Of a DNA stretch of 64,000 nucleotides, positions 2,613 through 62,370 are shown piece by piece. The stretch covers positions 1-64,000 of the forward strand of contig JAFUFJ010000011.1 of assembly GCA_017469955.1 (NCBI GenBank). The letters run 5' to 3'. The position numbers and the translations under genes are program-made. The stretch comes from Prevotella sp. (GTDB lineage Bacteria > Bacteroidota > Bacteroidia > Bacteroidales > Bacteroidaceae). The stretch's first letter is position 1, and each line of letters starts with the position of its first letter. The notes below the pieces were generated by a model. That model saw only the letters and a program-made list of their open reading frames with translations, was not told the DNA's origin and made no database searches.

Positions 2613-2744
2613 GAGAAAGCTATGGGTTCAAGTCGAGAAAGGGTAGAGTTCTGGGTGAGAAGAGATAGAGTTCTCGCTGAGAAAGCTATGGGTTCAAGTC
2701 GAGAAAGGGTAGACTCCTGAGGCTGAAAGCTTAGCTTTCCCGCC
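2613..2744. repeat. 22-bp dyad array A (6 units)
   Basis: Six direct units of exactly 22 bp start at 2613, 2635, 2657, 2679, 2701 and 2723. Each fits AGAA-NNN-WWW-NNN-TTCT plus a linker. Units 1 and 4 are identical over all 22 bases, suggesting internal duplication. Triplet pairs (left / reverse complement of right): AGC/CCC, AGG/CTC, GAG/CTC, AGC/CCC, AGG/GTC, AGC/AGC. The last unit is nearly a perfect palindrome. The array lies between the TPR-gene terminator and the promoter of the next gene. The 460-base gap also holds the terminator, a second 22-bp tandem (2781-2868) and a promoter. Confidence 0.9.
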
Positions 2745-2780
2745 GTCATGGCCCAGTATACCAGCCTGTACACGTTGCTG

Positions 2781-2868
2781 GTATGCTTGATACCAGGCAC
2801 ATGTATGCCCCGTACATCATAGGTGTATGGGGCATATTCCTTAGGTGTACGAGGCATATTTCTCAGGT
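2781..2868. repeat. Second 22-bp tandem of a different sequence family
   Basis: Four units of 22 bp start at 2781, 2803, 2825 and 2847, and a fifth partial unit starts at 2869. Each begins GTAT or GTAC, and units 2 to 4 end in AGGT. They share no wording with the GAGAAAG family but have the same period. Inverted arms are present: ATACCAGC/GCTGGTAT across 2758-2785 and ATGCCCC/GGGGCAT across 2804-2834. Confidence 0.75.
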
Positions 2869-2905
2869 GTATGGGCGGGAATGGTCAAAAAAGTCGGTTG
2901 TTTTC

Positions 2906-2936
2906 TTTGTTCTTTCGTGCGAAATGCCTATCTTTG
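2906..2936 (+). promoter_or_regulatory. Bacteroidota-type promoter for the TPR/HTH regulator
   Basis: TTTG at 2906-2909 and TATCTTTG at 2929-2936 are separated by 19 bases, matching the phylum's -33/-7 consensus. The coding start follows 47 bases later. Confidence 0.75.
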
Positions 2937-2983
2937 CAACAGCTATACTGAGAACGATTTACGACTAAAAACCGAACAGACCG

Positions 2984-4633
2984 ATGCGCATCCGTCATGC
3001 CCTGCTTCCGCTATTGCTGCTGTTGGCGCTGTCTTGCACTCCGGGCCGCCGCTATGATGCCGAGCTTTCGCTGATAGACAGCCTTCAGCGCCTGGACTCG
3101 ATAGCCGTCGGCGACACCGAGATGGCCGACCTTGTGGACTACTATTCCCGTCACGGCTCGGCCAACCGGCATGCCTTTGCGTGCTATCTCCAGGGCCGTC
3201 TGTACTATCTTCAGGGCCTCTATATCCCGGCTTTGAAGAATTTCAAGGAAGTGCCTTCGCTGGTTGATACGACACGCTCGGACTTTGACTGGCGCTTGCT
3301 GATGAAGGCTTATGCCTGTCAGTCAGACGTCTTTGACCGTCAGCGGATGGGAATGGAGTCGTTGGAGTCCTATCGTCAGATGGGGCATTATGCCCGTTTG
3401 GCAGGCGATACCCTTTCAGACATCAGGAGCCGGTATGGCTTTGCCCACGTCTATCTTCTTCTTGACCGCCGTGACAGTGCGGCCTATTACTTCCGCAGAT
3501 GTGCCGAAGAATACCGTGAGGCAGGCGACTCGATGCTGATGGCCGCCTCCCTTGCGTCTCTGGTTCCAATCTACAATTCCTGGGGGAGGTATGATGAGTC
3601 GGCCCGTTTGATATCCCAGTACGACCGTCTTCCTTCCCGTCTGCTTGACGATTCCCGCGTGCGCAAGGGCCGTGAGATCCACTATTACAACAAGGGCATG
3701 TACTTTTTAGGCACTCACAGGCTCGATTCGGCCGAGTATTATTTCCGCAAGGAAGGCCGCGAGGGTAAGGACTACAACAACCAGCTTGCGTCGTTTGTCG
3801 GCTTGAGCCGTCTGTTCAGGGACCAGTCCCGCTACGACTCGGCCTATAAGTATTCGGTGAAGGCCCATAGCCTTGAAAACAATTCCTATTCAGAATCCTT
3901 GTCGAAGAATCTCCAAGAGCTGTCCGCAGCCTACGACTACGGCAAGTATCGTCAGCAGTCAGAGCGCCTGCTGTCCTCGACGGCCCGCAGCAAAGCCGGG
4001 CAGCTGACGGGCGGTCTCGTGATACTCTTCTTGTCAGGACTGGCCGCCTTCGGCGGTTATTATGCGTGGTACCGTCATCAGTCAATGCAGAAGAAACTGC
4101 AGGATATGCTTGAAGAGAACAGGCGTACGGAGCGCCTTCTTCAGGAATACAACGACAAACGCGACCGTCTTTCTCGCATGCTGGATGATGGAAATCCTGC
4201 AGATACCCCAGACAAGAGCTTGTATGAGCTGCTGCAGATGAAGGTCAGATATGCCAACGAACGTCTGCATCTCGAACAGATAGACCGTTCTCAGTCCGAA
4301 GATGTGCTTCATTCCTCTCCGGCCTATGCCGCTGTTCTGCAAAAGTCTGCCACAGGTGAAAGGCTGGATGATGGCGATTGGGTTGAGATATATAAACTGG
4401 TAGATCTTGCATTTCCCCGCTTTTTCCCGACATTGGACGGTGTAGGGAAGCTGTCTTCCCATCAGCTTCGCGTCAGCATGCTGCTCAAACTGAAGGTGGA
4501 CAAGAAGACAGTATCCTGCCTGACCTTCCGTTCTCCCCAGGCAATATCCAGCACATGTTCCCGTTTGTACGACCGCTATGTTTCCGGAAGGCTTCCGTTC
4601 ACGTCATGGGACGATTTTATAAACTCCCTATAG
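2984..4633 (+). CDS. Membrane-anchored TPR protein with C-terminal helix-turn-helix-like domain
   Basis: A 549-residue protein. It starts with a signal ending LALSC, which looks like a lipobox. TPR-like helices fill about residues 25-330, a transmembrane helix lies near 337-360 (LVILFLSGLAAFGGYYAW), a coiled coil follows to about 400, and a C-terminal segment near 480-535 (LSSHQLRVSMLLKLKVDKKT, then SPQAISSTCSRLYDRY) has the layout of a LuxR-like helix-turn-helix. This plan, with a periplasmic TPR sensor and cytoplasmic DNA-binding end, is known in Bacteroidota TPR regulators. The DNA-binding role is inferred. A cluster of 10-bp direct repeats starts 32 bases after the stop and could be its own target. 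Confidence 0.75.
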   Translation: MRIRHALLPLLLLLALSCTPGRRYDAELSLIDSLQRLDSIAVGDTEMADLVDYYSRHGSANRHAFACYLQGRLYYLQGLYIPALKNFKEVPSLVDTTRSDFDWRLLMKAYACQSDVFDRQRMGMESLESYRQMGHYARLAGDTLSDIRSRYGFAHVYLLLDRRDSAAYYFRRCAEEYREAGDSMLMAASLASLVPIYNSWGRYDESARLISQYDRLPSRLLDDSRVRKGREIHYYNKGMYFLGTHRLDSAEYYFRKEGREGKDYNNQLASFVGLSRLFRDQSRYDSAYKYSVKAHSLENNSYSESLSKNLQELSAAYDYGKYRQQSERLLSSTARSKAGQLTGGLVILFLSGLAAFGGYYAWYRHQSMQKKLQDMLEENRRTERLLQEYNDKRDRLSRMLDDGNPADTPDKSLYELLQMKVRYANERLHLEQIDRSQSEDVLHSSPAYAAVLQKSATGERLDDGDWVEIYKLVDLAFPRFFPTLDGVGKLSSHQLRVSMLLKLKVDKKTVSCLTFRSPQAISSTCSRLYDRYVSGRLPFTSWDDFINSL

Positions 4634-4665
4634 CAGGCGCACCGATTTTGCCCATAAAAAACTGA

Positions 4666-4707
4666 AAATGCGTATCAAATGCGTATAAATGCGTATTAAA
4701 TGCGTAC
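4666..4707 (+). promoter_or_regulatory. Four AAATGCGTA(T/C) direct repeats (candidate operator)
   Basis: Copies at 4666-4675, 4677-4686, 4687-4696 and 4698-4707, with start-to-start spacing of 11, 10 and 11 bases, so every copy faces the same side of the helix. The last copy ends 7 bases before the -33 element of the next promoter. This is the typical position for activator binding. Confidence 0.7.
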
Positions 4708-4714
4708 TGAATTC

Positions 4715-4747
4715 TTTGGAAAATACCCGAATCAGGTGTTATCTTTG
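4715..4747 (+). promoter_or_regulatory. Promoter of the 4764 gene
   Basis: TTTG at 4715-4718 and TATCTTTG at 4740-4747 with a 21-base spacer. The start codon is only 17 bases downstream of the -7 element, so the transcript has a very short leader. Confidence 0.75.
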
Positions 4748-4763
4748 CCCCAAAAATTGAGAT

Positions 4764-5171
4764 ATGAGAAGAATACTTCTGCTTTTGCTGCTATTTTCGG
4801 CATCCGTCTGTTCTTCAGCCCAAGGCGATGCACCGCTGCCGAACGACAGTTTGAAGACAGGCATTGAGGTGACCTTAGAACCGGGAAAGTGGTGTGGTGA
4901 CAGTATGGACACCCCTGTTCCCGAAATCCCTGTTGTGAATCCTCATGCACCTCTGCGTCCCGCAACCGTCATAGTTGCCGGCTCCATGGTCTATACTTAC
5001 GGCCAGTTGGAGGGCTACACCTTCTATTTGCTGCGCGAAGACGAGGTGGTCTATTCCGTTGAAGTTGCCGACGGCGATGTGCCCATCGCACTTCCGCCGG
5101 GCATATCTGGCCTGCTGATGATCGTCTTTGCCGAGGGCTCCCGCTGCTACTACGCCGATATTTACTTATAG
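4764..5171 (+). CDS. Small secreted protein, DUF3244-like
   Basis: A 135-residue protein with a signal peptide (residues 1-19, ending CSSAQG). The mature part has a predicted beta-rich end: an aromatic stretch (MVYTYGQLEGYTFYLLRED) and a final GSRCYYADIYL. Size and pattern recall the small secreted DUF3244-type proteins common in Bacteroidales, but the match is weak. Its promoter carries four direct repeats, and it directly follows the TPR/HTH regulator, so it is a probable regulated target. The function is unknown. Confidence 0.6.
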   Translation: MRRILLLLLLFSASVCSSAQGDAPLPNDSLKTGIEVTLEPGKWCGDSMDTPVPEIPVVNPHAPLRPATVIVAGSMVYTYGQLEGYTFYLLREDEVVYSVEVADGDVPIALPPGISGLLMIVFAEGSRCYYADIYL

Positions 5172-5186
5172 ATGACAGTGTCTCGT

Positions 5187-5272
5187 GGGGAGGTATCGCA
5201 TTTGAATTGATAAATGCAATTCATATACAACATTTAAAAAACTGAATCCTTTCATGATATGCCTACCTCCCC
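5187..5272 (+). ncRNA. Candidate structured RNA leader upstream of the 5330 gene
   Basis: An outer stem pairs GGGGAGGTA (5187-5195) with TACCTCCCC (5264-5272), extended inward after a small bulge by GCAT (5198-5201) with ATGC (5259-5262). Inside is a seven-pair hairpin, TGAATTG (5203-5209) with CAATTCA (5217-5223). A later CTGAAT could compete for ATTCA. No T-run follows, so a simple terminator is unlikely. It could be a leader element or a processed 3' end of the preceding gene. Confidence 0.4.
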
Positions 5273-5329
5273 CTTTAAAGACCGTCTCTTTAGGAAGACA
5301 ATACATATAACTTTAAATATAATAAGGTA

Positions 5330-7675
5330 ATGAATAAGAAAATTCAGATTTTACTGTTTTTCCTGCAGTTCTCCCTTTCCCTTTCGGCACAGGGAATGAT
5401 TGATGACGGAATAGAGGTTCCTTCAATCAATTCAATCCGCTACGAAAAGCCCACGTATTCGATCATCAACAACAAGCCTGTGGCAACATTCACGGTGAAA
5501 GTGGCATCGGGAACACACAAAAGTGTTTTCTGGCTTCAGGGAGTTCGGCATGCTGACGGCACCTATTCTCAATATAAAGTGTGGTTCGACAACTACACAA
5601 GCAGTGCACAGACACTGACTCAGAACAGCGCAGACTGGGATTATACCAACACCGTAAGTGCCTATCTGCCGGCAGGAACCTACCAGCTGCATGTCGGAGG
5701 CGAGAGCCTTGACGATGTTCCAAACGTGGAATTTGTCGAAGTCTATACCTCTTTCATTACAAGCATTGCCGGATTGTATGACGCCATGAAGCAGCATAGC
5801 CAGAATATTCTGTCGCCGGGGACGGGCTACTTGCAGAACTTTCACTTCTCGTCTACGGAGAATGACCCCTCTTATCCGCCCGTCTATTTCACGGCAGAGC
5901 GCGACAAACCAGTCTATTACACTTTCCATCGCCTTGAATACTACACAGCCGGGCAGACCGTCAACTTCAACGTTACGGCCCTTTCGCCTGCCGGTATATC
6001 CAACGTGATCAATGTGTTCTCAGACACAGCACCCAGCGTAAACTGGGTGAGCACGGCCGATCCTTCGACAGGATTCGCCATCCTGGCCGCCACCATCGAC
6101 ATGAGCGGCTTCTATCATGTGCTTGTCCGTACCGATGAAAACAGCCATTGGGGCACATGTTCGCTCTCGATCAATGGTGAGCGATATTTCTCCGATGTGC
6201 CTGTATGCTGCAACAAAACCCTCATCAGTGGAGTAACTCCCGGCGACTTCTATGCAAGTTTTGCCTTAGGATATAGGGGCGACCCGATGTTGATGCTGAT
6301 GAATAGCACGGGCAGCGTCATCGGTTTCAACGACGACTATCCCTATTACAGCAACTTGTCAGACTTTGATTGGGGCAAGAATCCTCGCATCAATTCGCTG
6401 ATGTACGACGAACACTGGATGTATACTTCCCTGTGGAACTCCTATCCCAAGTCGGCATCTGCTGCGACAGTCGATGTCTATACGGGCTGCGACCTTCGCA
6501 TTTGGAACTATTACTCTCAGGTTCAACCCATATATCCCAACTATAAGCGCGATGACATCATCGTGGCTTCACAGCCGTCCGGACAGTATAATGAACTGTC
6601 ATGGGCTGTAGGCGAATGGACTTTTCCTATGGCATATGACTATAATGCTGTACCTCCGGAGGCATCAAATGCGGAACTGGCCGATGCGACATTGAACTCT
6701 TATGGATTTGTTCGTCAAGGAGCTACGGAGGCAAATGCCGTGATTGATCTCTATGATGCGCAGGGTGATGAACCTTCCCATATTGCCGTTAAGTCAAAAG
6801 GCCATTACTATGCGTCGGGCTATGCTTGGGAAAGCAAGTTAGGAGAGCATGAACGCGTGTATCATCCACGCTATGCTTTGGAGAGCAATGCTGCCGGTCA
6901 CGTGGCATATCACTACCGGAGAGACCCCACTTCGGTGGCATCCCAGTCGGAGTTCCTGGCTGATTTCCGCACGATAGAGAATGCCTCGTTCACGGCCGAA
7001 GAAGCGGAAATGGTGGAGAAGGGTGCCGAATCAGTTGCAGAAAGCGTGTCGGCATCGTTCGACAAGCTATGGGCAACCTGTCAGGATGAAGGCCGTTGGC
7101 GTCCGTTCCTGTCGCTGAGTCGCTATGAGACACTCGAGCATTATGCAGCACTACGCGACTTGTGCCTGGAACATCCCGAAACGTTTTATCTCGTGGCACG
7201 TCTGGTGGACAAGGGACATCTGCTTGCAGTCAAGCTGCTTTGCGACATGACTGACGGTCAGCATAAGGAGCTTCGCCGGGCTGTCTATGAGCGGAATGCC
7301 CAACGAAAGAGAAGCGCTGACGGCAAGACGATAGTCCGTCCTACGCGTACCGAGGCCATGCTCTTCATGAAATCCCTTCTGAATGGCGGGCAGACCGGGC
7401 GCAGTGCAGCGGTCAGCTACAGCTCAGATCCGAGGTTTAAGGTCGCTTCGTCGGGCAGAACGCTGAAGGTCTCTTTTGACCTTGACAAGGCTTCACGGGT
7501 GACCGTGGCTGCAGTCAGCCCCTATCAGGCAAACCTTCAGACGGTCTGCGACGGTCAACGCATGGAGGAAGGCCGCCAGTCGTTTGCCATCCATGTGGCA
7601 GAAGCCGGGGTGTACGTGGTGACTGTCGTCATTGACGGCGAAGTGTTTGAGAAGAAAGTATTTGTAGAAAAATAG
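5330..7675 (+). CDS. Large secreted protein with type IX-like C-terminal domain
   Basis: A 781-residue protein with a clear signal peptide (residues 1-20, ending LSLSAQG). I do not recognise the main domain. Residues 25-140 look like a beta-sandwich, and the middle is rich in Tyr, Asp and Asn (GFNDDYPYYSNLSDFDWG). A more helical stretch follows at about 540-680. The last 80 residues form a beta-rich module ending GVYVVTVVIDGEVFEKKV, resembling type A sorting domains of type IX secretion cargo. It is followed 42 bases later by another secreted protein with a similar fate. Probably surface-exposed; substrate unknown. Confidence 0.65.
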   Translation: MNKKIQILLFFLQFSLSLSAQGMIDDGIEVPSINSIRYEKPTYSIINNKPVATFTVKVASGTHKSVFWLQGVRHADGTYSQYKVWFDNYTSSAQTLTQNSADWDYTNTVSAYLPAGTYQLHVGGESLDDVPNVEFVEVYTSFITSIAGLYDAMKQHSQNILSPGTGYLQNFHFSSTENDPSYPPVYFTAERDKPVYYTFHRLEYYTAGQTVNFNVTALSPAGISNVINVFSDTAPSVNWVSTADPSTGFAILAATIDMSGFYHVLVRTDENSHWGTCSLSINGERYFSDVPVCCNKTLISGVTPGDFYASFALGYRGDPMLMLMNSTGSVIGFNDDYPYYSNLSDFDWGKNPRINSLMYDEHWMYTSLWNSYPKSASAATVDVYTGCDLRIWNYYSQVQPIYPNYKRDDIIVASQPSGQYNELSWAVGEWTFPMAYDYNAVPPEASNAELADATLNSYGFVRQGATEANAVIDLYDAQGDEPSHIAVKSKGHYYASGYAWESKLGEHERVYHPRYALESNAAGHVAYHYRRDPTSVASQSEFLADFRTIENASFTAEEAEMVEKGAESVAESVSASFDKLWATCQDEGRWRPFLSLSRYETLEHYAALRDLCLEHPETFYLVARLVDKGHLLAVKLLCDMTDGQHKELRRAVYERNAQRKRSADGKTIVRPTRTEAMLFMKSLLNGGQTGRSAAVSYSSDPRFKVASSGRTLKVSFDLDKASRVTVAAVSPYQANLQTVCDGQRMEEGRQSFAIHVAEAGVYVVTVVIDGEVFEKKVFVEK

Positions 7676-7717
7676 ATTATAGATAATAAAATGTTCAATT
7701 TAAAGAAAGGAAAGATT

Positions 7718-8968
7718 ATGAAGAAGTTTTTATTTGCAGGGTTGCTGGCCCTGTTTGCAGCAGACGCTTGGGCCCAGCTGGCGACTTCTGTCGCAGTAGA
7801 TGACGTCAACATCTACGTAGGTTCTCCCCAGTATACAAGTTTTGTCGTGATTGACAGGAAGTCAGATCAGATGACCTTTTATAATCCGGAAAACAGTAAT
7901 ATGTCCGTAGGTGGCAATAATTTCTTTGGCGGAATTCTTGCCAAGAATGGTGAAGCATGGGTAATGTACGGTGCTGGCAATGTGGGACATTATAAGGATG
8001 GGCGTCTCTATTGGCGCAATGTTCCAGTACAAGGCCAAATTTCCAGGCCTCAGTTCGACTCCAAAGGGCATATCTGGGCTGCTATTGAAGGTGCAAACAG
8101 GTTTGTGCAGCTTTCGTCAGTCAATATGGCTTTTGAGTATGAGTCGGAGAGCTTCGGCCTGCCATATTCCCTTGAACAAGGGCCTTATGATTTGGGAATT
8201 ACCCGTGACGGAACTATTTGGGCCCGGCTTAACCGTGGGATGAGGGGCGATATCGTCAGGCATAAGAAGTATGGCGAGATGGAATTCTTCAAAGAAGCAG
8301 AAGATGCATTTGCTGCCGAGAATAACGGTTTGAAAATTGCCAATATTGCTCTTGACGGCAAAGACCAGCTGTGGACGCTCCTGATGACCAATGAAAAGAA
8401 GAACCTCTGCCTTGCAACATTTGACGGAAAGGCATTCACGAAGGTTAAGGACATTACGGACCAAATGTATCACAGTATTCTTGGAATGGAGTTTGACGAG
8501 CACAACAGACTGTGGATAATGTTCTGGAAATACGTTGAGAAAGCCGGTAATCCTGACGAAAAAACGAAAGTCCTCCTGCCATGCTATTATGAAGAGGGGA
8601 AGATACACCAGATAGCTGAAATAGCTTTGGACTCACCTTATGGTTCAAACCTCTTCTATGCACCCCGTTGGACAGTGTATGACAATACGGTTTATATCTC
8701 ACATAGCGTGTTAAGTGAAGACACTTCGATTGCAGTTAGGGAAAGAACGCACTATCCCCATGTCGTCTTATATACGGCAGACTTGTCGGGACGGGTGACG
8801 GCAAGGGACATTGACCCCGAGGCGGATGCCCAGTTGCCAACGTCAGTCGACCGTCTGTCGGCTGCAGACGGCAGCCATGCCCGGCTCTATGACCTGCAGG
8901 GACGTCAGCTGCAGGCAGAACCCGAGAAGGGAATCTACATCAAGGACGGCAAGAAGTTTGTGAAATAG
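7718..8968 (+). CDS. Secreted beta-propeller-like protein with type IX sorting tail
   Basis: A 416-residue protein. The ATG at 7718 is preferred over the in-frame ATG at 7691 because it directly begins a standard signal peptide (KKFLFAGLLALFAADAWA). The body repeats blades such as WVMYGAGNVGHYKDG, GHIWAAIEGANRFVQL and GTIWARLNRGMRGDIV, as in NHL or two-component-regulator-type propellers. The end, RLYDLQGRQL then KGIYIKDGKKFVK, is the typical C-terminal sorting motif of Prevotella type IX cargo. It forms a pair with the preceding secreted gene and is followed by a strong terminator. The function is unknown. Confidence 0.7.
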   Translation: MKKFLFAGLLALFAADAWAQLATSVAVDDVNIYVGSPQYTSFVVIDRKSDQMTFYNPENSNMSVGGNNFFGGILAKNGEAWVMYGAGNVGHYKDGRLYWRNVPVQGQISRPQFDSKGHIWAAIEGANRFVQLSSVNMAFEYESESFGLPYSLEQGPYDLGITRDGTIWARLNRGMRGDIVRHKKYGEMEFFKEAEDAFAAENNGLKIANIALDGKDQLWTLLMTNEKKNLCLATFDGKAFTKVKDITDQMYHSILGMEFDEHNRLWIMFWKYVEKAGNPDEKTKVLLPCYYEEGKIHQIAEIALDSPYGSNLFYAPRWTVYDNTVYISHSVLSEDTSIAVRERTHYPHVVLYTADLSGRVTARDIDPEADAQLPTSVDRLSAADGSHARLYDLQGRQLQAEPEKGIYIKDGKKFVK

Positions 8969-8995
8969 CACAGGCCAAGACTGTCGCTTAGACTT

Positions 8996-9026: not shown

Positions 9027-9104
9027 GTGTCTCCGGTGCTGCATGCCGGCAGTCTTATGCGAAAAATCTGCCCCGTCGTTCGGGCAAGAGTGGGGAAACG
9101 TCTT

Positions 9105-9214
9105 GAGAAAGCTATGGGTTCTGGGTGAGAAAGGATAGAGTTCTGGGTGAGAAAGGATAGCGTTCTGGGGCAGAATCCATAGACTTCTGAGGCTGAAAGC
9201 TAAGGTTTCTCGCC
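9105..9214. repeat. 22-bp dyad array B (5 units)
   Basis: Units start at 9105, 9127, 9149, 9171 and 9193 with no change in spacing. Triplet pairs (left / reverse complement of right): AGC/CCC, AGG/CTC, AGG/CGC, TCC/GTC, AGC/ACC. The array opens with GAGAAAGCT and closes with GGTTTCTCGCC. It lies between a terminator and the start of the polysaccharide utilisation locus. Confidence 0.9.
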
Positions 9215-18793: not shown

Positions 18794-18903
18794 GAGAAAG
18801 CTAAGACTTTAGCCCCAGAATCCTTAGCTTTCTTGCCAATAACCCTTAGCTTTCTCATCCATAATCCATAGACTTCTCACCTTAAACTCATAGCTTTCTC
18901 GCC
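18794..18903. repeat. 22-bp dyad array C (5 units)
   Basis: Units start at 18794, 18816, 18838, 18860 and 18882. Triplet pairs: AGC/GTC, TCC/AGC, CCC/AGC, TCC/GTC, CTC/AGC. The outer edges are inverted copies of each other (CCGAGAAAGCTA on the left, TAGCTTTCTCGCC on the right). The 540-base gap around it also holds the locus terminator and the rplS promoter; 18904-19109 shows nothing else I can support. Confidence 0.9.
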
Positions 18904-22141: not shown

Positions 22142-22251
22142 GAGAAAGCTATGGGTTTAGCCTGAGAAGTCTTAGGGTTATGACCGAGAAAGCTATCCTT
22201 TCTCACCCATAAGTCTATGGATTATGGGGCAGAAAGGATAGCTTTCTTGCC
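22142..22251. repeat. 22-bp dyad array D (5 units)
   Basis: Units start at 22142, 22164, 22186, 22208 and 22230. Triplet pairs: AGC/CCC, GTC/CCC, AGC/AGG, GTC/TCC, AGG/AGC. This array sits between two converging genes, so the family is not tied to promoters only. Confidence 0.9.
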
Positions 22252-24015: not shown

Positions 24016-24016
24016 C

Positions 24017-29498: not shown

Positions 29499-29608
29499 GA
29501 GAAAGCTTAGGTTTCAGGGTGAGAAGTCTATGGGTTGTGGGGCAGAAAGCTAAGAGTTATTGGTCAGAACCCATAGACTTCTGAGGCTGAAAGGATAGCT
29601 TTCTCGCC
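29499..29608. repeat. 22-bp dyad array E (5 units)
   Basis: Units start at 29499, 29521, 29543, 29565 and 29587. Triplet pairs: AGC/ACC, GTC/CCC, AGC/CTC, CCC/GTC, AGG/AGC. Edges are inverted (GCCGAGAAAGCT and AGCTTTCTCGCC region). It lies between the divergent hpt and nnr genes, outside both promoters. Confidence 0.9.
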
Positions 29609-32892: not shown

Positions 32893-33002
32893 CAGAAAGG
32901 CCAGCCTTTACGGAGCAAAAGATGATGTTTTGGCAGGGAAAAGATCATGTTTTGGCCGGCAATACATCATCTTTTGCCCTGAAAAGGGCATGCCCTGTTG
33001 CC
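32893..33002. repeat. 22-bp dyad array I (5 units, variant vocabulary)
   Basis: Units start at 32893, 32915, 32937, 32959 and 32981. The period and central dyad are those of the GAGAAAG arrays, but the wording differs: central units read (C/G)AAA-AGA-TSA-TGT-TTTG. Triplet pairs are AGG/GGC, AGA/ACA, AGA/ACA, ACA/AGA, GGG/GGC, so left and reverse-complemented right words again share one set. It lies between the divergent ferredoxin and porT genes; no clear porT promoter is visible in 33003-33089. Confidence 0.75.
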
Positions 33003-35607: not shown

Positions 35608-35821
35608 AAATAGGCGAAAAAGCTTGAACGGGGAGACTTGACGCCGGGAGTGAGGCGGGTCGACGAGGAGAAACGGGTGGCAGCCGGCTGTGGAAAGTGT
35701 AAAGAAAGTGGCTCGTTTTTAACATTTCAGGACGTGGAAAACAGACGAAATGGAGCATGAAAAAGGCGGTTTCGGAGGTGAATGGCATGGGTTTCCGGCG
35801 AAATTCCGGGCTGAAGGTGCC

Positions 35822-35931
35822 GAGAAAGCTATGGGTTCTCAGCCATAGAGCATAGGATTGCCGGGCAGAACGCTATGGTGTCATGCCGAGAACCCTTAGC
35901 CTTCATCCCGAGAAAGCACATCTTTCTTGAG
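35822..35931. repeat. 22-bp dyad array F (5 units, partly decayed)
   Basis: Units start at 35822, 35844, 35866, 35888 and 35910. Triplet pairs: AGC/CCC, AGC/TCC, CGC/ACC, CCC/GGC, AGC/AGA. The last units depart from consensus, but the 22-base register is kept. It lies between the divergent 5'-nucleotidase and ABC-exporter genes. Confidence 0.85.
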
Positions 35932-36212
35932 TTGAAGGATTTGGGAATCAGACAAAGTTCGTGGGGAATCAAGGAGAAAATTCTCGTATCTGATTGTCAT
36001 TCAATATGTTTTAGATGTGCAGGAGCTTCTTCGGTGATTTTGGGCAAAAGCAGGGCTTGCAGGAAGTACGATAAGCCTTCTGTCGGCGGTTTGTCCTTCT
36101 TTTTCTGAATTTTTAACACTTCTTCCAGCCTGATTTCGGCGTGTTTTCCATGAGAAAACGCCGTGGAATTCATGTCAACGCAAACGTTTTCGTTGAAAAT
36201 AGCAGGTGAAGT
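35932..36212. other. Unassigned intergenic stretch before the exporter operon
   Basis: About 280 bases between array F and the exporter promoter. It contains a possible eight-pair hairpin (GATAAGCC with GGTTTGTC, region 36069-36095) followed on the plus strand by a T-rich run. Weak reading frames on both strands (about 75 codons) show no recognisable family and are probably chance. Confidence 0.35.
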
Positions 36213-51889: not shown

Positions 51890-51999
51890 GAGAAAGCTTA
51901 GGGTTCAGCCCGAGAAGTCATAGCTTTCTTGTCAATAACACTATCCTTTCTCACCCAGAACCCTAAGACTTCTCGGGCTGAAACCTTAGCTTTCTCGGC
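51890..51999. repeat. 22-bp dyad array G (5 units)
   Basis: Units start at 51890, 51912, 51934, 51956 and 51978. Triplet pairs: AGC/CCC, GTC/AGC, CAC/AGG, CCC/GTC, ACC/AGC. It lies between the end of the 13-gene run and the IMP cyclohydrolase promoter. The rest of that 467-base gap (52000-52161) shows nothing I can support. Confidence 0.9.
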
Positions 52000-52161
52000 A
52001 GGAACGGGCTGCGGTGCAGGCCGGAAACGGCAGGAAAGCCGTTATGAAGCCAGTCATTACGACAGTCTGTAGCATGCCTTTCGGACGTTTTCAGTGGCAG
52101 TTGATGTATGGCAAGAAAATAGAATTATTTTCTGTTTTTTCAAAAAAAACATGATTCGGCG

Positions 52162-52192
52162 TTTGCCATATCGGATTAATTACCTAACTTTG
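52162..52192 (+). promoter_or_regulatory. Promoter of the IMP cyclohydrolase / mre operon
   Basis: TTTG at 52162-52165 and TAACTTTG at 52185-52192 with a 19-base spacer. The leader of about 90 bases contains a small hairpin (GCCAG 52205-52209 with CTGGC 52216-52220) and later a run of six Ts. Confidence 0.75.
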
Positions 52193-52288
52193 CATCGAGT
52201 ATCCGCCAGCGGCAACTGGCTTTCGGGTCGGTTGTTTTTTGCCAATATGCCCGATACCTATCCATCAAAGCTTTTCAATCATCAGAAC

Positions 52289-52888
52289 ATGGCTGACAAA
52301 AGACAGATCAAGACAGCGCTCATCTCAGTCTTCCACAAGGACGGACTGGAGGACATCCTCGCCAAGCTGAACGAAGAAAGAGTGAAATTTCTCTCGACAG
52401 GCGGTACGTGGCAGTTCATCGAAAGCCTCGGCTACGAGTGTCAGAAAGTAGAAGACCTGACGGGCTATCCCTCCATACTCGGTGGCAGGGTGAAGACCTT
52501 ACACCCGAAAGTGTTCGGAGGCATCCTCTCACGTCGCGACAATGCAGGCGACCGCGAACAGACGGCCCAGTATGAAATACCCGACATCGACCTCGTAGTC
52601 GTCGACCTCTATCCCTTCGAACAGACCGTGGAAAGCGGAGCGTCAGAGGCCGAAATCATCGAGAAAATCGACATCGGCGGTATTTCCCTGATACGTGCAG
52701 CAGCCAAAAACTTCAACGACGTGGCCATCGTTCCCTCGAAAGCCGAGTATGCTATGTTGCTTGACCTGCTCAGAAAGCAAGGGGCAGCGACCACCCTGGA
52801 CGAGCGTCGCGAACTGGCCAAACGGGCTTTCAGCGTGAGCAGCCATTACGATACGGCCATCCACGCATACTTTGCAAAGGGTGAATGA
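52289..52888 (+). CDS. Stand-alone IMP cyclohydrolase (N-terminal half of PurH)
   Basis: A 199-residue protein from the ATG at 52289. Landmarks of the MGS-like cyclohydrolase domain: TALISVFHKDGLEDILAKL, FLSTGGTWQFIESLGYE, GGRVKTLHPKVFGGILSRRD, DLVVVDLYPFEQTV, and IDIGGISLIRAAAKNFNDV. It closes FAICAR to IMP. In most bacteria it is fused to AICAR transformylase; here that activity is encoded at 20008-21210. The stop is followed by a gap and then mreB, the place where full-length purH sits in related genomes (family knowledge). Confidence 0.93.
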   Translation: MADKRQIKTALISVFHKDGLEDILAKLNEERVKFLSTGGTWQFIESLGYECQKVEDLTGYPSILGGRVKTLHPKVFGGILSRRDNAGDREQTAQYEIPDIDLVVVDLYPFEQTVESGASEAEIIEKIDIGGISLIRAAAKNFNDVAIVPSKAEYAMLLDLLRKQGAATTLDERRELAKRAFSVSSHYDTAIHAYFAKGE

Positions 52889-55722: not shown

Positions 55723-57560
55723 AAGATCCAGAGAAAGACAGTCGCAGATACGTGATAGGCGGGGTGGCAACGCTCATAGTTGTCGTCTACGTCGTTCGTC
55801 TTTTCATGCTCCAACTCATGAGTGACGACTATAAAAAGAATGCCGACTCGAATGCCTTTCTCAAGAAAATAGAGTTTCCTTCGCGAGGTGTCATTTCCGA
55901 CAGGAATGGAAAACTTCTTGTCTACAACCAGCCAATCTACAACCTGATGGTCGTAATGAATGAGGCAAAGGACAGAATTGACACCCTGGAATTTTGTGAA
56001 AGCCTGGGAATAACCAAGGAGTTCTTCATCAAGCGGATGGAGGAAGTAAAGGCTCGTCAGGGATATTCCCGATTCACACAGCAACTCTTTATGAGCCAGA
56101 TAAGCGACAAGGAATTCAGCGTCTTCCATGAAAAGATGTACAGATTCCCCGGCTTTTATATCCAGAACCGTAGCGTCCGACAATATGAATACCCCTATGC
56201 GGCTCATGTCTTGGGCGATGTTGCAGAGGTGTCACAGGGCGATATAGAGGAAGATGACTACTATCAGCCGGGTGATTACATCGGAAAACAGGGGGTGGAA
56301 CGTTCCTATGAAAAGCAGCTTAGAGGGGAAAAAGGTGTCGAGATATTGCTGCGTGATGCCCATGGACGCATACAGGGAAGGTACCAAGATGGGATCTATG
56401 ACCACAAGCCTGTTCCGGGAAGAAACCTGACTTTGAGCATTGATCTCGACCTGCAGGCTCTCGGAGAAAGGCTCATGGAAGGAAAGATTGGCAGCATTGT
56501 AGCTATCGAACCTGCTACAGGAGAGGTACTTTGCATGGTGTCTTCTCCTACCTATGACCCCCGACTAATGGTAGGAAAGCAGAGGGGAAAGAACCATCAG
56601 GAACTGGCACAAAACACATGGAAGCCGTTGTTGAACAGAAGCATCATGGGGCAGTATCCTCCCGGTTCAACATTTAAAACCTCTCAGGCATTGACCTTCA
56701 TGACAGAGGGAATTATCACACCGGGCACTGCTTACCCATGCTACCGAGGCTTCATTTACAAGGGTTTAAGGGTGGGATGTCACGGACATGGCTCACCGCT
56801 GCCACTCATACCGGCCTTGTCTACGTCGTGCAACGGATATTTCTGCTGGGGACTTTACTATATGATGGGCAACCGCAAAAAGTACCCAACAGTGCAAGAT
56901 GCCATGAATACGTGGCGCGACTATATGGTGTCGATGGGGTTTGGATATAAGCTCGGTATCGATCTTCCGGGAGAAAAGAGGGGGTTGATTCCTAATGCAG
57001 ATTTCTATGATAAGGCATATAAGGGCTCGTGGAACGGGCTGACTATCATCAGCATCTCTATCGGACAAGGTGAAGTAAACTTAACTCCGTTGCAGATAGC
57101 CAATCTCGGAGCGACCATCGCCAATCGAGGATTCTTCTACACACCTCATGTCGTTAAGAGAATTGAAGGTGAACATTTAGACACACTATACACAACCCGG
57201 CATGCGACAATGGCAAGCCGTTCGGCCTACGATTATGTCGTAAACGGCATGCGTTCGGCTGCTCTTGGAGGCACATGTAAGGCTCTTGCGAAGTATGACT
57301 TTATGGCTTGTGGCAAAACAGGAACGGCACAAAACCGCGGGCAAGACCACTCTGTTTTCATGGGATTCGCACCAATGGACGACCCAAAGATAGCCATTGC
57401 CGTCTATGTGGAGAACGGTGGTTTTGGAGCCCACTTTGGTGTTCCCATCGGAGGACTGATGATGGAGCAGTATCTTAAGGGTGGATTGTCGCCAGCTTCA
57501 GAAGCAGAGGCCTCGGCATTCCAGCATAAACGTATTTACTATGGATCGCATAGCAGATAG
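55719..57560 (+). CDS. mrdA: Penicillin-binding protein 2 (elongation transpeptidase)
   Basis: A 613-residue protein starting at a GTG (55719) that overlaps the mreD stop, with the usual transmembrane anchor (VIGGVATLIVVVYVVRLFML). The dimerisation domain precedes the transpeptidase, whose active-site motifs are S-x2-K in PPGSTFKTSQA (Ser about 316), S-x-N in STSCNGYF and K-T-G in ACGKTGTAQN. It cross-links peptidoglycan during elongation with RodA. Standard length. Confidence 0.96.
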   Translation: MKDPEKDSRRYVIGGVATLIVVVYVVRLFMLQLMSDDYKKNADSNAFLKKIEFPSRGVISDRNGKLLVYNQPIYNLMVVMNEAKDRIDTLEFCESLGITKEFFIKRMEEVKARQGYSRFTQQLFMSQISDKEFSVFHEKMYRFPGFYIQNRSVRQYEYPYAAHVLGDVAEVSQGDIEEDDYYQPGDYIGKQGVERSYEKQLRGEKGVEILLRDAHGRIQGRYQDGIYDHKPVPGRNLTLSIDLDLQALGERLMEGKIGSIVAIEPATGEVLCMVSSPTYDPRLMVGKQRGKNHQELAQNTWKPLLNRSIMGQYPPGSTFKTSQALTFMTEGIITPGTAYPCYRGFIYKGLRVGCHGHGSPLPLIPALSTSCNGYFCWGLYYMMGNRKKYPTVQDAMNTWRDYMVSMGFGYKLGIDLPGEKRGLIPNADFYDKAYKGSWNGLTIISISIGQGEVNLTPLQIANLGATIANRGFFYTPHVVKRIEGEHLDTLYTTRHATMASRSAYDYVVNGMRSAALGGTCKALAKYDFMACGKTGTAQNRGQDHSVFMGFAPMDDPKIAIAVYVENGGFGAHFGVPIGGLMMEQYLKGGLSPASEAEASAFQHKRIYYGSHSR

Positions 57561-59010
57561 ACAACCAAGCGTTTTCCGCTCACTTGACTGGTGGACGATC
57601 GGCATCTATCTTGCCTTGCTCACCTTTGGATGGCTCAGTGTATGCGGAGCAAGCTATACTTATGGAGAGACAGAGATATTCAGTCTTGCGACGAACTCAG
57701 GCAAGCAAATCCTATGGATAGGCACATCTATCGTGTTAGGCTTTGTGATACTGATGCTTGACGATCGCCTTTATGACAGCTATGCCTATATCATATATAT
57801 GGTATTGGTGGTCTTGCTCTTTGCAACTATTTTCAATCCTGTCAGTACAAAGGGCTCTCATTCATGGTTGGTGCTTGGACCTGTGAAGATACAGCCTGCC
57901 GAATTTGCGAAATTTGCGACTGCATTGGCTGTCGCAAAGTTTATGGGAGGCTATGATTTTGATATCCATCGATGGAAAGACTTTTCCATAGCCTGTGCGA
58001 TAGTCTTTGTCCCGATGCTTTGCATTGTTGGTCAAAGCGAGACAGGATCGGCGCTTGTCTACCTTTCCTTCTTTCTTATGTTCTACCGAGAAGGCATGAC
58101 TGGAAGCTTTCTTTTTACCGGTGTGGCTTTGGTAGTTTACTTTGTTGTCGGTATCAAATATGAAGATGTGATACTATGGGCTACTCCTACTTCTGTAGGA
58201 AAGTTTGCAGTGATGCTCTTGGTGCAGCTGTTCACTTTAGGTATGGTCTGGGTGTTCTGTCATGATAAGAAGGGCGCTTTGACGTTGTTTTCCTATTCTG
58301 TCTTGATCACCGTCGGAGCCCTTTTCCTGTCACATTATTGGCTTTCGTTCAACGTATTCTGGGTTCAGCTGGCTCTTAACGTTGTTCTCATCGGGTGGCT
58401 TTGCTATCAGTGGCTGCGACGACGCATGGTCCGTTATCTGTTCATTGCTGGCTTTGCAGTCGGTTCAATGGTGTTTTTCAATTTGGCCGACTATGTGTTG
58501 AACAATGTGATGCAGCAGCATCAACGCACTCGAATCAATGTGTTGCTGGGCTTGGATGAAGACCTTCGTGGAGCAGGATACAATGTCCATCAGAGCGAGA
58601 TTGCCATTGGTTCGGGTGGCTTACGTGGCAAAGGTTTTCTTAATGGCACTCAGACGAAGCTGAAATACGTGCCCGAACAGGATACTGACTTCATCTTTTG
58701 TACCGTAGGAGAGGAGGAAGGTTTCGTGGGTTCTGCGGGCGTTCTACTGTTGTTTTTAGCCTTGATCTTGCGCTTGATCCATCTTGCTGAGCGCCAGCCT
58801 TTTGCTTTTGGTCGGATATATGGCTATTGTGTGTTGAGCATATTCCTATTCCATGTGTTCATCAATGTGGGCATGGTATTGGGATTGACGCCTGTCATTG
58901 GCATCCCGTTGCCTTTCTTTAGCTATGGAGGATCGTCGTTGTGGGGCTTCACTTTGCTGCTTTTCATTTTCTTGCGCATTGATGCAAGTCGCGAGATGAC
59001 ACGCTCTTAA
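57541..59010 (+). CDS. rodA: Peptidoglycan glycosyltransferase RodA
   Basis: A 489-residue SEDS-family protein from the ATG at 57541, which overlaps the end of mrdA by 20 bases. Family motifs: SWLVLGPVKIQPAEFAKFA, VGQSETGSALVYLSFFLMFY, and the end GIPLPFFSYGGSSLWGFTLL. Ten or more membrane helices. It polymerises lipid II with PBP2. It is somewhat longer than E. coli RodA because of an extra loop region with helices near residues 225-310, as seen in other Bacteroidota. Last gene of the mre operon. Confidence 0.96.
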   Translation: MDRIADRQPSVFRSLDWWTIGIYLALLTFGWLSVCGASYTYGETEIFSLATNSGKQILWIGTSIVLGFVILMLDDRLYDSYAYIIYMVLVVLLFATIFNPVSTKGSHSWLVLGPVKIQPAEFAKFATALAVAKFMGGYDFDIHRWKDFSIACAIVFVPMLCIVGQSETGSALVYLSFFLMFYREGMTGSFLFTGVALVVYFVVGIKYEDVILWATPTSVGKFAVMLLVQLFTLGMVWVFCHDKKGALTLFSYSVLITVGALFLSHYWLSFNVFWVQLALNVVLIGWLCYQWLRRRMVRYLFIAGFAVGSMVFFNLADYVLNNVMQQHQRTRINVLLGLDEDLRGAGYNVHQSEIAIGSGGLRGKGFLNGTQTKLKYVPEQDTDFIFCTVGEEEGFVGSAGVLLLFLALILRLIHLAERQPFAFGRIYGYCVLSIFLFHVFINVGMVLGLTPVIGIPLPFFSYGGSSLWGFTLLLFIFLRIDASREMTRS

Positions 59011-59080
59011 TCAATGACAAAGGTGCAGCGTCAGCCACATCTTTATATGATTTTCCGTCGATATTCTTTTCGTTTCCTCT

Positions 59081-59524
59081 TTAGAAGCGTTTCTCCAACC
59101 GCCATCCTACGTCGCTGATACCGGGCAAAATCTCACGTTTCATGTTGTGCTGGATGCTGATGTGCAGCGAGTCTTCTGCAGCGAGTTCCTGTATTTTCAG
59201 GGGGAAAAGGTATTGATAGTAGGTCAGTCCTCGCCCTTCAGCCTTTCCGTTCTCGTTGACGAGCCGGCAGTTGATGGTGTCTCTTGAGCAGACAGGTTGC
59301 GGTTTTCCCTTTGCGAACTTTTCTTGTTCTATGATGAGTGTCACCGACATAAAAGGGTAGTCGCCGTTGATTCTCAGTCCCACTGTGCTTTGGTAAGGTC
59401 CTCCTTCTTTCAGGGGTGGAATGCTAAACTCGGCGTGAATGTTCTTTTCCCATCCTGTCAAGGATGTATGCTGGTAGGAGTCATACACCTTTCTCTGGTT
59501 GCATGACGTGAGCAGAAAAGCCAT
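59081..59524 (-). CDS. gldH: Gliding-motility/type IX lipoprotein GldH (start uncertain)
   Basis: The product contains CNQRKVYDSYQHTSLTGWE, EFSIPPLKEGGPYQSTVGLR, and YYQYLFPLKIQELAAEDSLH, typical of GldH. With the ATG at 59524 the signal is only MAFLLTSC, too short. In the same frame an RRNRH n-region and hydrophobic ATLVTTLFMAFLL lie upstream, but no ATG, GTG or TTG falls between the ricT stop and 59524. The next ATG is at 59659, inside ricT, giving a product of 192 residues. A non-standard start or a sequence error is also possible. GldH belongs to the type IX secretion/gliding set. Convergent with rodA. Confidence 0.75.
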   Translation of the reverse strand: MAFLLTSCNQRKVYDSYQHTSLTGWEKNIHAEFSIPPLKEGGPYQSTVGLRINGDYPFMSVTLIIEQEKFAKGKPQPVCSRDTINCRLVNENGKAEGRGLTYYQYLFPLKIQELAAEDSLHISIQHNMKREILPGISDVGWRLEKRF

Positions 59525-59552
59525 GAAAAGAGTTGTGACGAGAGTCGCGTGT

Positions 59553-60731
59553 CTATTTCTTCTCGTCTTGACGGCCTTCTCTTCTGCGGTTGTTGTTGCG
59601 ATGGTGGTGACTGTTTCCGTTGTTGTTTCTGTTTTTGTTGCGTTTCTTTTTCTTGGCATTGTCGAAACGGCTGATGTCGGCATCGGCCAGCAGGTCCACC
59701 GGTTTGTTGTCCTGTTTGTCGCTGCTGTTCTCGTCTTGCAGGCTTTCAGGCTTGATGCCTTGCTTGTTCATCTCGATGATCTGCCGTGCTCGTTGGGCTG
59801 TGATGGTCTCAAGATTGGCAGCGATTCGCTTGTCAGTAGAGTAGGTCACCTGCCCTGCAAGGATGTCTCCTTTGAAGAAATAATAGTCGCTGTCAGCCGT
59901 TTGCAGCATGATTTCCCGGCTTGGCATACGGCGTCCGGCCTCCACATAGTTGTCCACTTCGTAGTTCAGGCAGCACTTTAGCTTTGCACACATGCCAGCC
60001 AGCTTCTGCGGATTGAGCGATATGTCTTGGAAACGTGCGGCATTGGTGCCCACGCTTACGAAGTTCTTCATCCACGTTGCGCAGCAGAGTTCTCGTCCGC
60101 AAGGCCCGGTACCTCCGATGCGTCCGGCTTCTTGTCGTGCTCCTATTTGCTTCATTTCGATGCGCACATGGAATGCTGCTGCGAGGTCTTTTATTAATTG
60201 TCTAAAGTCTACACGCTCGTCGGCAATGTAGTAGAAGATGGCCTTGTTGCCGTCGCCTTGGTACTCGACGTCTCCGATTTTCATGTCCAGTCCCAGTCCC
60301 TTGGCTATCTGTCGGCTCTCTATCATGGTGTCGTGCTCGCGTGCTTTTGCCTCGTAGTATTTCTCCATGTCTACCGGTTTAGCGATGCGATAGATGCGCC
60401 GGATGTCGTCAGGCGATTTGATGTTAGCCTTTCTCAGCTGCAGTTCTACGAGTTTTCCTGTGAGTGTCACGATTCCGATGTCATGTCCGGGATTGGCTTC
60501 TACGGCCACGATGTCGCCCTTTTTCAGGTCGAGTTTGTTGATGTTGTGGTAGTATCCTTTTCGGGTATTCTTGAATTGTACCTCCACGAGGTCGGTGGTA
60601 TCGAAGTTTCCTGGTACGTCAGCCAGCCAGTCATAGGTGTTGAGCTGCTTGTTCTGGCGTCCGCATGCCTGTCGGCAGAAGCCCCGTTCACATCCTCGTG
60701 ATATCTTGAATTTCATGTCTTTGTAGTCCAT
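59553..60731 (-). CDS. ricT: PSP1-domain protein RicT (YaaT)
   Basis: A 392-residue protein. PSP1 domain cysteines: CERGFCRQACG near the start, GPCGRELCCATW near residue 210 and GMCAKLKCCLNYE near 246; such Cys clusters bind Fe-S in the RicA/F/T complex of Bacillus. The C-terminal 50 residues are low-complexity Lys, Arg, Asn and His (KKKRNKNRNNNGNSHHHR). RicT affects RNA processing in Bacillus; the role in this phylum is unclear. It sits between holB and gldH, as is common in Bacteroidota. Confidence 0.92.
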   Translation of the reverse strand: MDYKDMKFKISRGCERGFCRQACGRQNKQLNTYDWLADVPGNFDTTDLVEVQFKNTRKGYYHNINKLDLKKGDIVAVEANPGHDIGIVTLTGKLVELQLRKANIKSPDDIRRIYRIAKPVDMEKYYEAKAREHDTMIESRQIAKGLGLDMKIGDVEYQGDGNKAIFYYIADERVDFRQLIKDLAAAFHVRIEMKQIGARQEAGRIGGTGPCGRELCCATWMKNFVSVGTNAARFQDISLNPQKLAGMCAKLKCCLNYEVDNYVEAGRRMPSREIMLQTADSDYYFFKGDILAGQVTYSTDKRIAANLETITAQRARQIIEMNKQGIKPESLQDENSSDKQDNKPVDLLADADISRFDNAKKKKRNKNRNNNGNSHHHRNNNRRREGRQDEKK

Positions 60732-60774
60732 TTCTATATTGGGTTGATTGGGTTCTTGTCCTGTTTTCCTCCGT

Positions 60775-61983
60775 TTATTTCTTGATGAGCAGCACGATCA
60801 TCTGCAGTGCGAGGTCGTAGAACACGATCTTGGCATTGGCATTTTGTGCGATGTCGCGCTGGGCCCGTGCCAGCAGCTCGCTGATTTCGATGACGTTGGC
60901 TTCGTTGATATACTTGGCAAAGTTGCGTGAGAACTGCTCTTCCTCCTCGGTCATGTAGTTGAGTTCTGGCTTTCGGAAGTTGAAAATGAAGTTTTCGCGG
61001 ATCATATGTCCGAAGTATGTGAGCATTCTTTTTTGGCGTTCACGGCCGTAGGAGGCTGTCTCTTCGCTCCAGTGTTTCATCTCTTTCACGTCTCGTGTGT
61101 AGGCTTTGCGCATGAGTTGGATGAACATTTCGAGGAACAGGTGTCGCTCGTTGTTGCTGTCAAGTGCTTCCAAAGCCTTGTCCCAGCTGCCGTTTGCTGC
61201 CCGTGCTATGCGGTGTGCATTGTCACGGTCGATGCCCCTTTTCTCGACGAGTGCTTCTTCAATGGCATCATTGTCGATGCGTTTGATGTCGATTCGCTGC
61301 GTGCGGCTGCGTATGGTTTCCAAGAGTCGTTCGGGTTCTTCGCTGACCATGATGAACACAGTCTTTGCCGGTGGCTCTTCGAGTAGCTTGAGAATTTTGT
61401 TGCTGCACTCCTGGTTCATGCGTTCGGGCAGCCAGATGATGCTCACCTTGTAGCCTCCTTGGCTTGATTTCAGGCTGAGCTTGCGCGTCAGTTCGTCGCT
61501 CTCTCCCGCGCCGATTTGTGCCTGTTGGTTGGCAGCATCCATGCGTTCGAGCCACTGATCGATGGTGAAGTAGGGGCTTTCGAGTATCATTTCGTTCCAT
61601 TGACGGGCAAAGTCACTGCTCACCATCTTGTGCTCTGATGACGTGCCTGTGGGACGAATCACGGGGTAAGTGAAGTGCAAGTCGGGGTGTTCCATCTTGT
61701 CGAGCATGGCCTCGATGTTGGCGGTTGAAGGCTTGGGAGCTGCCACGGGCATCATCATAAAGTTGTCCGGGCCGGCCTCTTGGGGCGTGTCTTTGCCCTG
61801 TTCCTGGCGTCCTGTTCCGCGTCTTTCGCCCAGCATATAGGAGGCAAAGGCCATGGCCAGTGCCATTTTTCCGCAGCCTTGCGGGCCGCATAGCATGACA
61901 GCATGGGGCAGATGTCCGTCGTCGACCATCTGCAGCAGTCTGTCGCGTGCCGTTTCTTGTCCTATGACTTCACTGAATTTCAT
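60775..61983 (-). CDS. holB: DNA polymerase III subunit delta'
   Basis: A 402-residue protein from the ATG at 61983 (KFSEVIGQETARDRLLQMVD). P-loop GPQGCGKMALA has Met where Ser or Thr normally follows the Lys, a frequent state in the non-hydrolysing delta' subunit. ILKLLEEPPAKTVFIMVSEE and LETIRSRTQRIDIKR are the typical sensor region. It is part of the clamp loader at the replication fork. An ATG ten codons upstream is possible but lies over the promoter. Confidence 0.94.
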   Translation of the reverse strand: MKFSEVIGQETARDRLLQMVDDGHLPHAVMLCGPQGCGKMALAMAFASYMLGERRGTGRQEQGKDTPQEAGPDNFMMMPVAAPKPSTANIEAMLDKMEHPDLHFTYPVIRPTGTSSEHKMVSSDFARQWNEMILESPYFTIDQWLERMDAANQQAQIGAGESDELTRKLSLKSSQGGYKVSIIWLPERMNQECSNKILKLLEEPPAKTVFIMVSEEPERLLETIRSRTQRIDIKRIDNDAIEEALVEKRGIDRDNAHRIARAANGSWDKALEALDSNNERHLFLEMFIQLMRKAYTRDVKEMKHWSEETASYGRERQKRMLTYFGHMIRENFIFNFRKPELNYMTEEEEQFSRNFAKYINEANVIEISELLARAQRDIAQNANAKIVFYDLALQMIVLLIKK

Positions 61984-62010
61984 CGTGCGTGCACGTACAT
62001 TATCTGACTG

Positions 62011-62018
62011 CAAAGTTA
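62011..62018 (-). promoter_or_regulatory. -7 element of holB
   Basis: TAACTTTG on the minus strand from 62018 to 62011. A CTTG 20 bases upstream (about 62042-62039) is a weak -33 match. The start codon lies 28 bases downstream. Confidence 0.55.
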
Positions 62019-62260
62019 CGCATTATTTGTTGAAACAGCAAGTTTTTCTTCTCTTATATCGGTTGGAGAAATGTTAATTTTTATGATTTTTCTTTACAAT
62101 CTTTCGCTCGCTTCTTTTCTTTTTCCAGAAGAGTGTCGGCTTTTGCGCGAATGCGCAGGTTTTTCTCTTCTTAAAGTAATTGGATGAGGCTCAGAGAGTT
62201 TGTCTTGCAGGTTGCCGGCCGTCCCGTTTTCTTATGTCGTGAATGCTATGCTTTCAGGTC

Positions 62261-62370
62261 GAGAAAGCTGATGTTTCTTGCCGGAAGGTCAAAGTATTCA
62301 TGGCGTGTATCCTTAGGTCTGTGGCTGAGAAAAGACAGCTTTCTCGGCGGGAAGGCTATAGACGGCTGCC
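62261..62370. repeat. 22-bp dyad array H (5 units, decayed)
   Basis: Units start at 62261, 62283, 62305, 62327 and 62349; a possible extra unit lies at 62239-62260. Units 1 and 4 keep the GAGAAA edge and the TTTCT half; the others have drifted, though the 22-base register is recognisable. It lies between the divergent holB and GH125 genes. The flanks (62043-62238, 62371-62540) show no gene. Confidence 0.7.

Follow-up and report, generated by a model that had tools for sequence, protein, structure and literature searches.

Intergenic arrays of imperfect palindromes at a 22-bp period in a Prevotella genome, and arrays of the same period in related species

We identified in a Prevotella genome a species-typical class of high-copy repetitive extragenic elements that recurs across the genus and is BIME- or MITE-like in its distribution; this is our best reading of the data. 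Each element is an array of short dyads placed 22 bp apart. Many related species carry arrays with the same spacing and other sequences, which suggests that conservation acts on the spacing along the double helix. The window referred to below is the whole 64-kb stretch of DNA that was analyzed.

A scan of the window for six AGAA-N3-W3-N3-TTCT units at 22 bp placed all 60 top-scoring positions at eight AGAA/TTCT array loci (Table 1). Their scores, in window order, were 51.0, 50.0, 46.5, 47.0, 49.5, 44.5, 51.0, and 41.5, against maxima of 29–32 in 20 first-order Markov simulations, and the eight dispersed loci of the original prediction are thus real. Each of the starts given for them is one base early, and at 62261 one further unit can be read leftward. 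When periods of 10–59 were tried, matches at the threshold appeared for 22 and 44 only, and several of the arrays are also visible in TRF output. No Rfam match at the gathering score was obtained in the window, so that a known RNA family is not indicated, and no tRNA was found in the 64 kb. The window also holds 22-bp arrays of other sequence classes and larger repeats that enclose arrays; these, together with the recurrence of the period in relatives with other sequences, were missing from the picture first drawn. Of note, a hybrid array at L026 (15147) joins GTAC-type units with AGAA units.

Table 1 Arrays and larger repeats located in the 64-kb window
Feature	Position	Strand	Context or source
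Six-unit AGAA/TTCT dyad array, 22 bp	2614..2740	.	Window scan
Second 22-bp array, GTAC-type dyads, other sequence class	2745..2880 (ends approximate)	.	Same gene gap as the 2614 array
Five-unit array	9106..9210	.	Window scan
Five-unit array	18795..18899	.	Upstream of ribosomal protein L19 gene
Five-unit array	22143..22247	.	Between convergent genes
Five-unit array	29500..29604	.	Between divergent phosphoribosyltransferase and NAD(P)H-hydrate dehydratase genes
Three-unit 22-bp array, CAAAAG-N5-CTTTTG kind	32914..32979	.	Resembles arrays at several G010 loci
Larger dispersed element, one of six found	35698..36118 (ends approximate)	.	Encloses degenerate array 35823-35927
Degenerate five-unit array	35823..35927	.	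Within larger repeat
Five-unit array	51891..51995	.	Between ApbE-family and purH-like genes
Larger dispersed element	62072..62469 (ends approximate)	.	Encloses degenerate array 62240-62344
Degenerate five-unit array	62240..62344	.	Within larger repeat

In the 2.26-Mb genome, the strict two-unit pattern occurs 73 times, and 0 times when the sequence is read backwards; a looser pattern gives 791 matches on both strands versus 35 backwards. At 4.33 matches per element, a ratio taken from 63 elements on stretches picked for holding strict matches, about 175 arrays are estimated genome-wide. Other arithmetic (spacing-scan pairs, window density) would bring the number nearer 110 or 280, and the genome probably carries well over a hundred arrays. 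The sample studied comprised the window and 20 further stretches (464 kb in total). Separately, 150 matches were scored out of 1699 candidates on both strands. Among the 65 candidate elements listed, 61 pass at no more than seven differences (the window array at 62240 is outside this set), and 63, 61, 57, 55, or 49 elements were used depending on the analysis.

The usual element consists of five units (U1–U5) spanning 105 bp, each unit being a 17-bp imperfect palindrome. The left and right triplets of 275 units (55 elements) were tabulated, as had been proposed with the original prediction, and both proved to be concentrated in the same seven words: AGC, GTC, AGG, CCC, ACC, CTC, and TCC make up 521 of the 550 half-sites (256/275 left words and 265/275 right words). 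The shared vocabulary claimed from the window therefore holds for these words, with the amendment that CGC hardly occurs (2 left, 1 right) and that TCC is lopsided (12 left, 1 right). The two halves of a unit are indeed usually different words, as left and right match in just 14 of the 275 units. The centre is not a free WWW, since six five-letter cores (CTTAG, CTAAG, CATAG, CTATG, CTATC, and GATAG) account for 266 of 285 units. As had been said, the arrays are unlike CRISPR: a comparison of the repeats alone shows no constant long repeat, and the words come from a small shared set.

The idea of a combinatorial set of half-sites did not survive, as the words are specific to their position. Counted column by column, the 61 elements have position-specific letters that are palindromic as a set; the commonest words are AGC at U1 left, GTC at U2 left, GAC at U4 right, and GCT at U5 right, and U1 mostly ends in TTCA and U5 mostly begins with TGAA. 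Facing half-sites, moreover, avoid carrying the same word. Across the ten half-sites, the same-word association is negative for all nine adjacent pairs and mixed for non-adjacent ones, and within units identical facing words were observed versus expected from shuffling as follows: U1, 2 versus 3.3; U2, 0 versus 4.5; U3, 0 versus 12.9; U4, 1 versus 5.4; U5, 11 versus 13.3. The array ends (AGAAAGCT/AGCTTTCT) are mutually inverted, as are the arms of every unit. A single polarity masked by inverted copies was considered and rejected: orientation fitting reached 134.1 bits versus 130.7–133.1 in eight symmetric controls, which is just above all of them and allows a weak polarity at most. The flanks add about half a unit (a half-site) of signal and little beyond. 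Words enriched there are A-rich words, TATCTTTGCA, which we take to be promoter-like, and TGTTAAAA-like words, the last of which led to the larger repeat described below.

The spacing is rigid. Under a relaxed unit pattern that left distances of 14–60 open, neighbouring units were 22 bp apart in 171/171 pairs and next neighbours 44 bp apart in 124/124, so that the exact 22-bp spacing reported for the window extends to the sampled copies. The copies have diverged (mean pair identity 0.725, best pair 0.895, 57 copies), and the lack of any 1-bp shift would therefore not simply be a matter of youth. Twenty-two base pairs correspond to about two turns of B-DNA. AA/TT steps show strong power at 11 and 5.5 bp and little at 22. 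We infer from this rigidity that a dimeric protein recognises each array in its double-stranded form, and the suggestion that a protein may read half-sites every two helical turns is compatible with these data. The ten inverted half-sites of an element, about 11 bp from one to the next, would all face the same side of the helix, where the putative protein would sit in a side-by-side row with one dimer per unit. As a tentative proposal, to which we give slightly less than an even chance, the arrays may be bound in this way on one face of the helix and have an architectural or insulating role. Gene conversion at the level of single units could also partly account for the rigid spacing.

The position of the arrays relative to genes, which were called here and in the relatives with a simple codon-model caller, bears on this role. 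None of the 61 elements lies inside a called gene, in agreement with the intergenic location first described. Among the 60 elements with both neighbours, 32 lie between co-directional, 17 between convergent, and 11 between divergent genes, while gaps of at least 150 bp in the sampled DNA number 84, 25, and 34, respectively. Convergent gaps are thus the most occupied class (17 arrays/25 gaps), followed by co-directional (32/84) and divergent ones (11/34). Co-directional arrays have a median distance of 107 bp to the upstream stop and 216.5 bp to the next start, and 25 of the 32 are nearer the stop. No strand asymmetry relative to transcription was detected among these 32 (p 0.23). The genes beside the window arrays are ordinary ones, encoding L19, a PurH-like protein, MreB, PSP1, GldH, and an ABC transporter, among others. 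It can be noted that the PurH-like frame (52094-52888, 264 aa) contains the MGS domain and the first 59 of the 311 positions of the AICARFT model only, and that the next gene begins less than 200 bp on.

The siting near gene ends and between convergent genes suggests that the arrays would act as a bidirectional road-block and insulator, or architecturally, rather than in promoter control. In a different reading, they would be operators at which a single transcription factor controls a regulon of more than 100 genes. Dyads at helical spacing do resemble operator arrays, and three-unit arrays of this shape are found in methanogenic archaea at four loci, each close to a gene start of similar appearance; however, convergent gaps are the most occupied here and the commonest context in relatives, and the distances from arrays to gene starts vary widely. 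Promoter operators are accordingly disfavoured for the main class, and we regard a single large regulon as highly improbable.

Folding was examined on both strands of 40 of 57 arrays. Compared with dinucleotide shuffles, the folds had a mean z of -5.8, with 95% of 80 folds below -2, and 10-base inverted flanks were present in 2 of 57 arrays versus 0.1 expected. These values, with the position of the arrays nearer gene ends, would be expected if the array acted as RNA or as a cruciform, forming on transcription or extrusion a long hairpin by which an mRNA is terminated or protected. Tandem dyads, however, fold by construction, which accounts for the strong z-scores, and natural arrays are less stable than chimeras built by shuffling units of the same positions between copies (-39.7 versus -43.6 ± 0.85, z +4.6). 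This control reverses the sign, and the long hairpin was rejected as a selected structure. Nor was there positive covariation across the array itself, the signal of a first scan lying chiefly inside unit centres. An intrinsic terminator did not seem to be present either, as a T run after the hairpin is rare, with TTTTT within 20 nt in only 3 of 122 array flanks. With 11 of 60 arrays between divergent genes in addition, we consider an RNA or cruciform role improbable. Taken with the avoidance of identical facing words, the poorer folding of natural arrays indicates that visible selection is against extended pairing, not for it. Purging of stable palindromes and hairpins would explain why facing half-sites avoid the same word.

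The history of the copies was analyzed with the 57-element set. Nearest-neighbour identity was 0.828 on average, versus 0.813 ± 0.003 after shuffling of units among the copies and 0.780 ± 0.003 after shuffling of columns. Units of different copies are therefore near linkage equilibrium, with little linkage, yet more than none; this would be compatible with the shuffling by recombination that had been suggested as a cause, while free combination is not supported. No near-identical recent copies were present among the 57, and no target-site duplication signal was detected, the largest excess identity being 0.083 among 1280 offset and length choices. On these two grounds, recent transposition was rejected.

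Larger repeats leave an older mobile origin as a possibility. Six degenerate arrays of this genome, two of them in the window and four at L018, L023, L032, and L035, share larger flanks, with TGTTAA words in one orientation at about -98 and +190 relative to the array. Eight arrays of the related genome G108 can be aligned along about 205 bp and have inverted TGTAAA-like ends (mean identity 0.77, maximum 0.84). The gap holding the 29500 array points the same way, as it measures 499 bp; in the nine relatives that retain the two flanking genes as a pair, the corresponding gap is about 130 bp or less in eight and 737 bp in one. Of the 29 other loci retrieved, these nine have the phosphoribosyltransferase/hydrate-dehydratase pair, and period 22 was among the three best periods in none of them, so that positional conservation was rejected at the one locus tested. 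In G108, a period-22 array lies upstream of the same gene, without the pair. Separately, G030 (L178, ~1290-1410) has a 23-bp dyad array (GAAACGGTCGTTTC) upstream of the hydrate-dehydratase gene.

The arrays might accordingly be a non-autonomous, MITE- or REPIN-like family upheld by transposition, with the array as the transposase-binding part and no host function. Besides these larger repeats and the expanded gap, its high copy number, intergenic location, mutually inverted array ends, and the lack of a close copy in any of 397 other genomes of the genus would fit such a family. Against it stand the absence of near-identical copies both here and in G108, the missing target-site duplications, units near linkage equilibrium, and the complete lack of spacing indels at the mean identity observed. 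A search for the Y1 transposase (RAYT, PF01797), the type covered, gave no match at E ≤ 0.001 in the genome of the window (G000, 75.6% complete), while 25 of the 36 genomes searched had one. A mobile family is the main rival to the binding platform, and we view an element kept up by transposition alone as rather unlikely; an old BIME- or MITE-like process, on the other hand, probably spread the arrays.

The sequence of the family was sought in other genomes. The exact two-unit AGAA pattern was found in one of 60 genomes (35 others from the same genus; the closest protein match among the 60 was 72–73% identical), and the core version in one of 398 same-genus genomes; both times the one found was the genome of the window itself. 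When 84,980 species genomes were searched, 36 stretches carried the two-unit pattern. Eight came from one Candidatus Physcousia equi MAG, mostly with four or five units and other cores, e.g., AGAAACCAAAAGTTTCT; six were from Prevotella- or Prevotellaceae-named records, two each from Anaerolineae, Anaerophaga, and Bacteroides, and four from methanogenic archaea, among others. Many of the 36 are true 22-bp arrays, others two units only. Viral contigs gave three matches, each of two units only. The methanogen loci (L114, L115, L138, and L139) all have three dyads at 22 bp close to a gene start that looks similar among them. A model of the window's family, R1, gave E values of 1e-10 to 1e-7 at some of the stretches (L104, L120, L123, L128, and L133) and of 6e-8 at an array of the same-genus genome G006. 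The AGAA family is not wholly private: close copies were not found, looser relatives exist, and arrays of the same shape occur in distant groups.

The period is far more widespread in the genus than the sequence. A sequence-free autocorrelation survey, in which 44-bp matches were counted as 22 and two very short G012 contigs and two outgroup scraps were omitted, revealed 57 period-22 arrays in 1.12 Mb of 19 other same-genus species; the next commonest period was 14, with 8 arrays. Fifteen of the 19 species have such arrays, the other four having none in the DNA sampled, and G026 alone contributes 17. The outgroups, all drawn from other families within the order, gave one period-22 array in 0.67 Mb, and the rank at which the period is shared is thus the genus at least. 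The relatives' arrays are intergenic in 56 of 57 cases and lie in 22 convergent, 20 co-directional, and 8 divergent contexts (50 with both neighbours called). Their sequences vary, e.g., TAAAAGATGACCTTTTA, CAAAAGCGGCTGTTTTG, TTGGACAAACGTGTCCA, and TGTATAACTGATTATAC, with the cores CTATG/CATAG recurring across species (G000, G006, and G100). The relaxed AGAA-family unit pattern finds a single pair in the relatives, at 18; in G108, 30 pairs of units stand at a distance of 22 and 2 at a distance of 28, and in G010 the distance is 22 for 10/10 neighbouring pairs. Period-14 arrays are common in G009 (L042 and L043), which also has period 7, and in the outgroup G059.

Some of these observations weaken the proposed binding platform. 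The several sequence classes found side by side in G026 would not be explained by one sequence-reading protein. Four of the 19 relatives show no period-22 array in the DNA sampled, and the dyad signal exceeds z = 2 in just 34 of the 57 arrays (it is 2 or below in 23). Array positions are not conserved at the locus tested, and the wide sequence difference between species would be unusual for a host architectural site. We also considered a genus-common chromosome-organising or insulating system, whose putative protein would read the spacing (a half-site every 11 bp, a dyad every 22 bp) more than the sequence, and in which each species would keep in its gene gaps well over 100 functional arrays with a sequence of its own that turns over fast; it seems doubtful to us.

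If the spacing is selected in each copy, these arrays would form a large class of Prevotella intergenic DNA with a function, of which we found no description in titles and abstracts under mostly open-access coverage. They would also be a natural collection of phased DNA scaffolds, repeatedly altered in sequence while obeying a single geometric rule, on which one could test directly whether it is spacing or letters that a nucleoid or insulator protein reads. If the arrays are mobile instead, they would be a repeat class with a fixed period and a replaced sequence, for which simple slippage or transposition are not ready explanations.

Among known systems, iteron-type and multi-operator arrays for dimeric DNA-binding proteins consist of dyads or repeats at about two helical turns. 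The arrays described here differ in being dispersed in gene gaps genome-wide rather than confined to one origin or promoter. Short tandem repeats inside dispersed elements are also reported for BrickBuilt of Porphyromonas gingivalis, a MITE minisatellite with a 23-nt unit (AGAYCATARTATCCTCTCRTRTG) whose leader and tail carry inverted ends; among the 19 elements of one strain, one has 18 full repeats and another has none (PMC4596501). Here, in contrast, the period is 22 bp, there are about five diverged units at about 175 loci, and the main class has no leader or tail. REPs and BIMEs, as these are described (PMC2817692, PMC3733652), resemble the arrays in having more than 100 copies, an intergenic location mostly between co-directional and convergent genes, and imperfect palindromes grouped at regular spacing; strong binding of DNA gyrase is reported for BIME-2 (PMC2817692). 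REPs are given as 20–40 bp (PMC2817692, PMC3733652), whereas the arrays have a 17-bp unit at exactly 22 bp. In the column counts and printed flanks, the GTAG/CGTC foot is not conserved and the unit starts with AGAA, and complementarity is avoided rather than kept by compensatory change. The high-copy and extragenic character of REPs and BIMEs is shared by the arrays, with about 175 estimated and none of the 61 elements in called genes.
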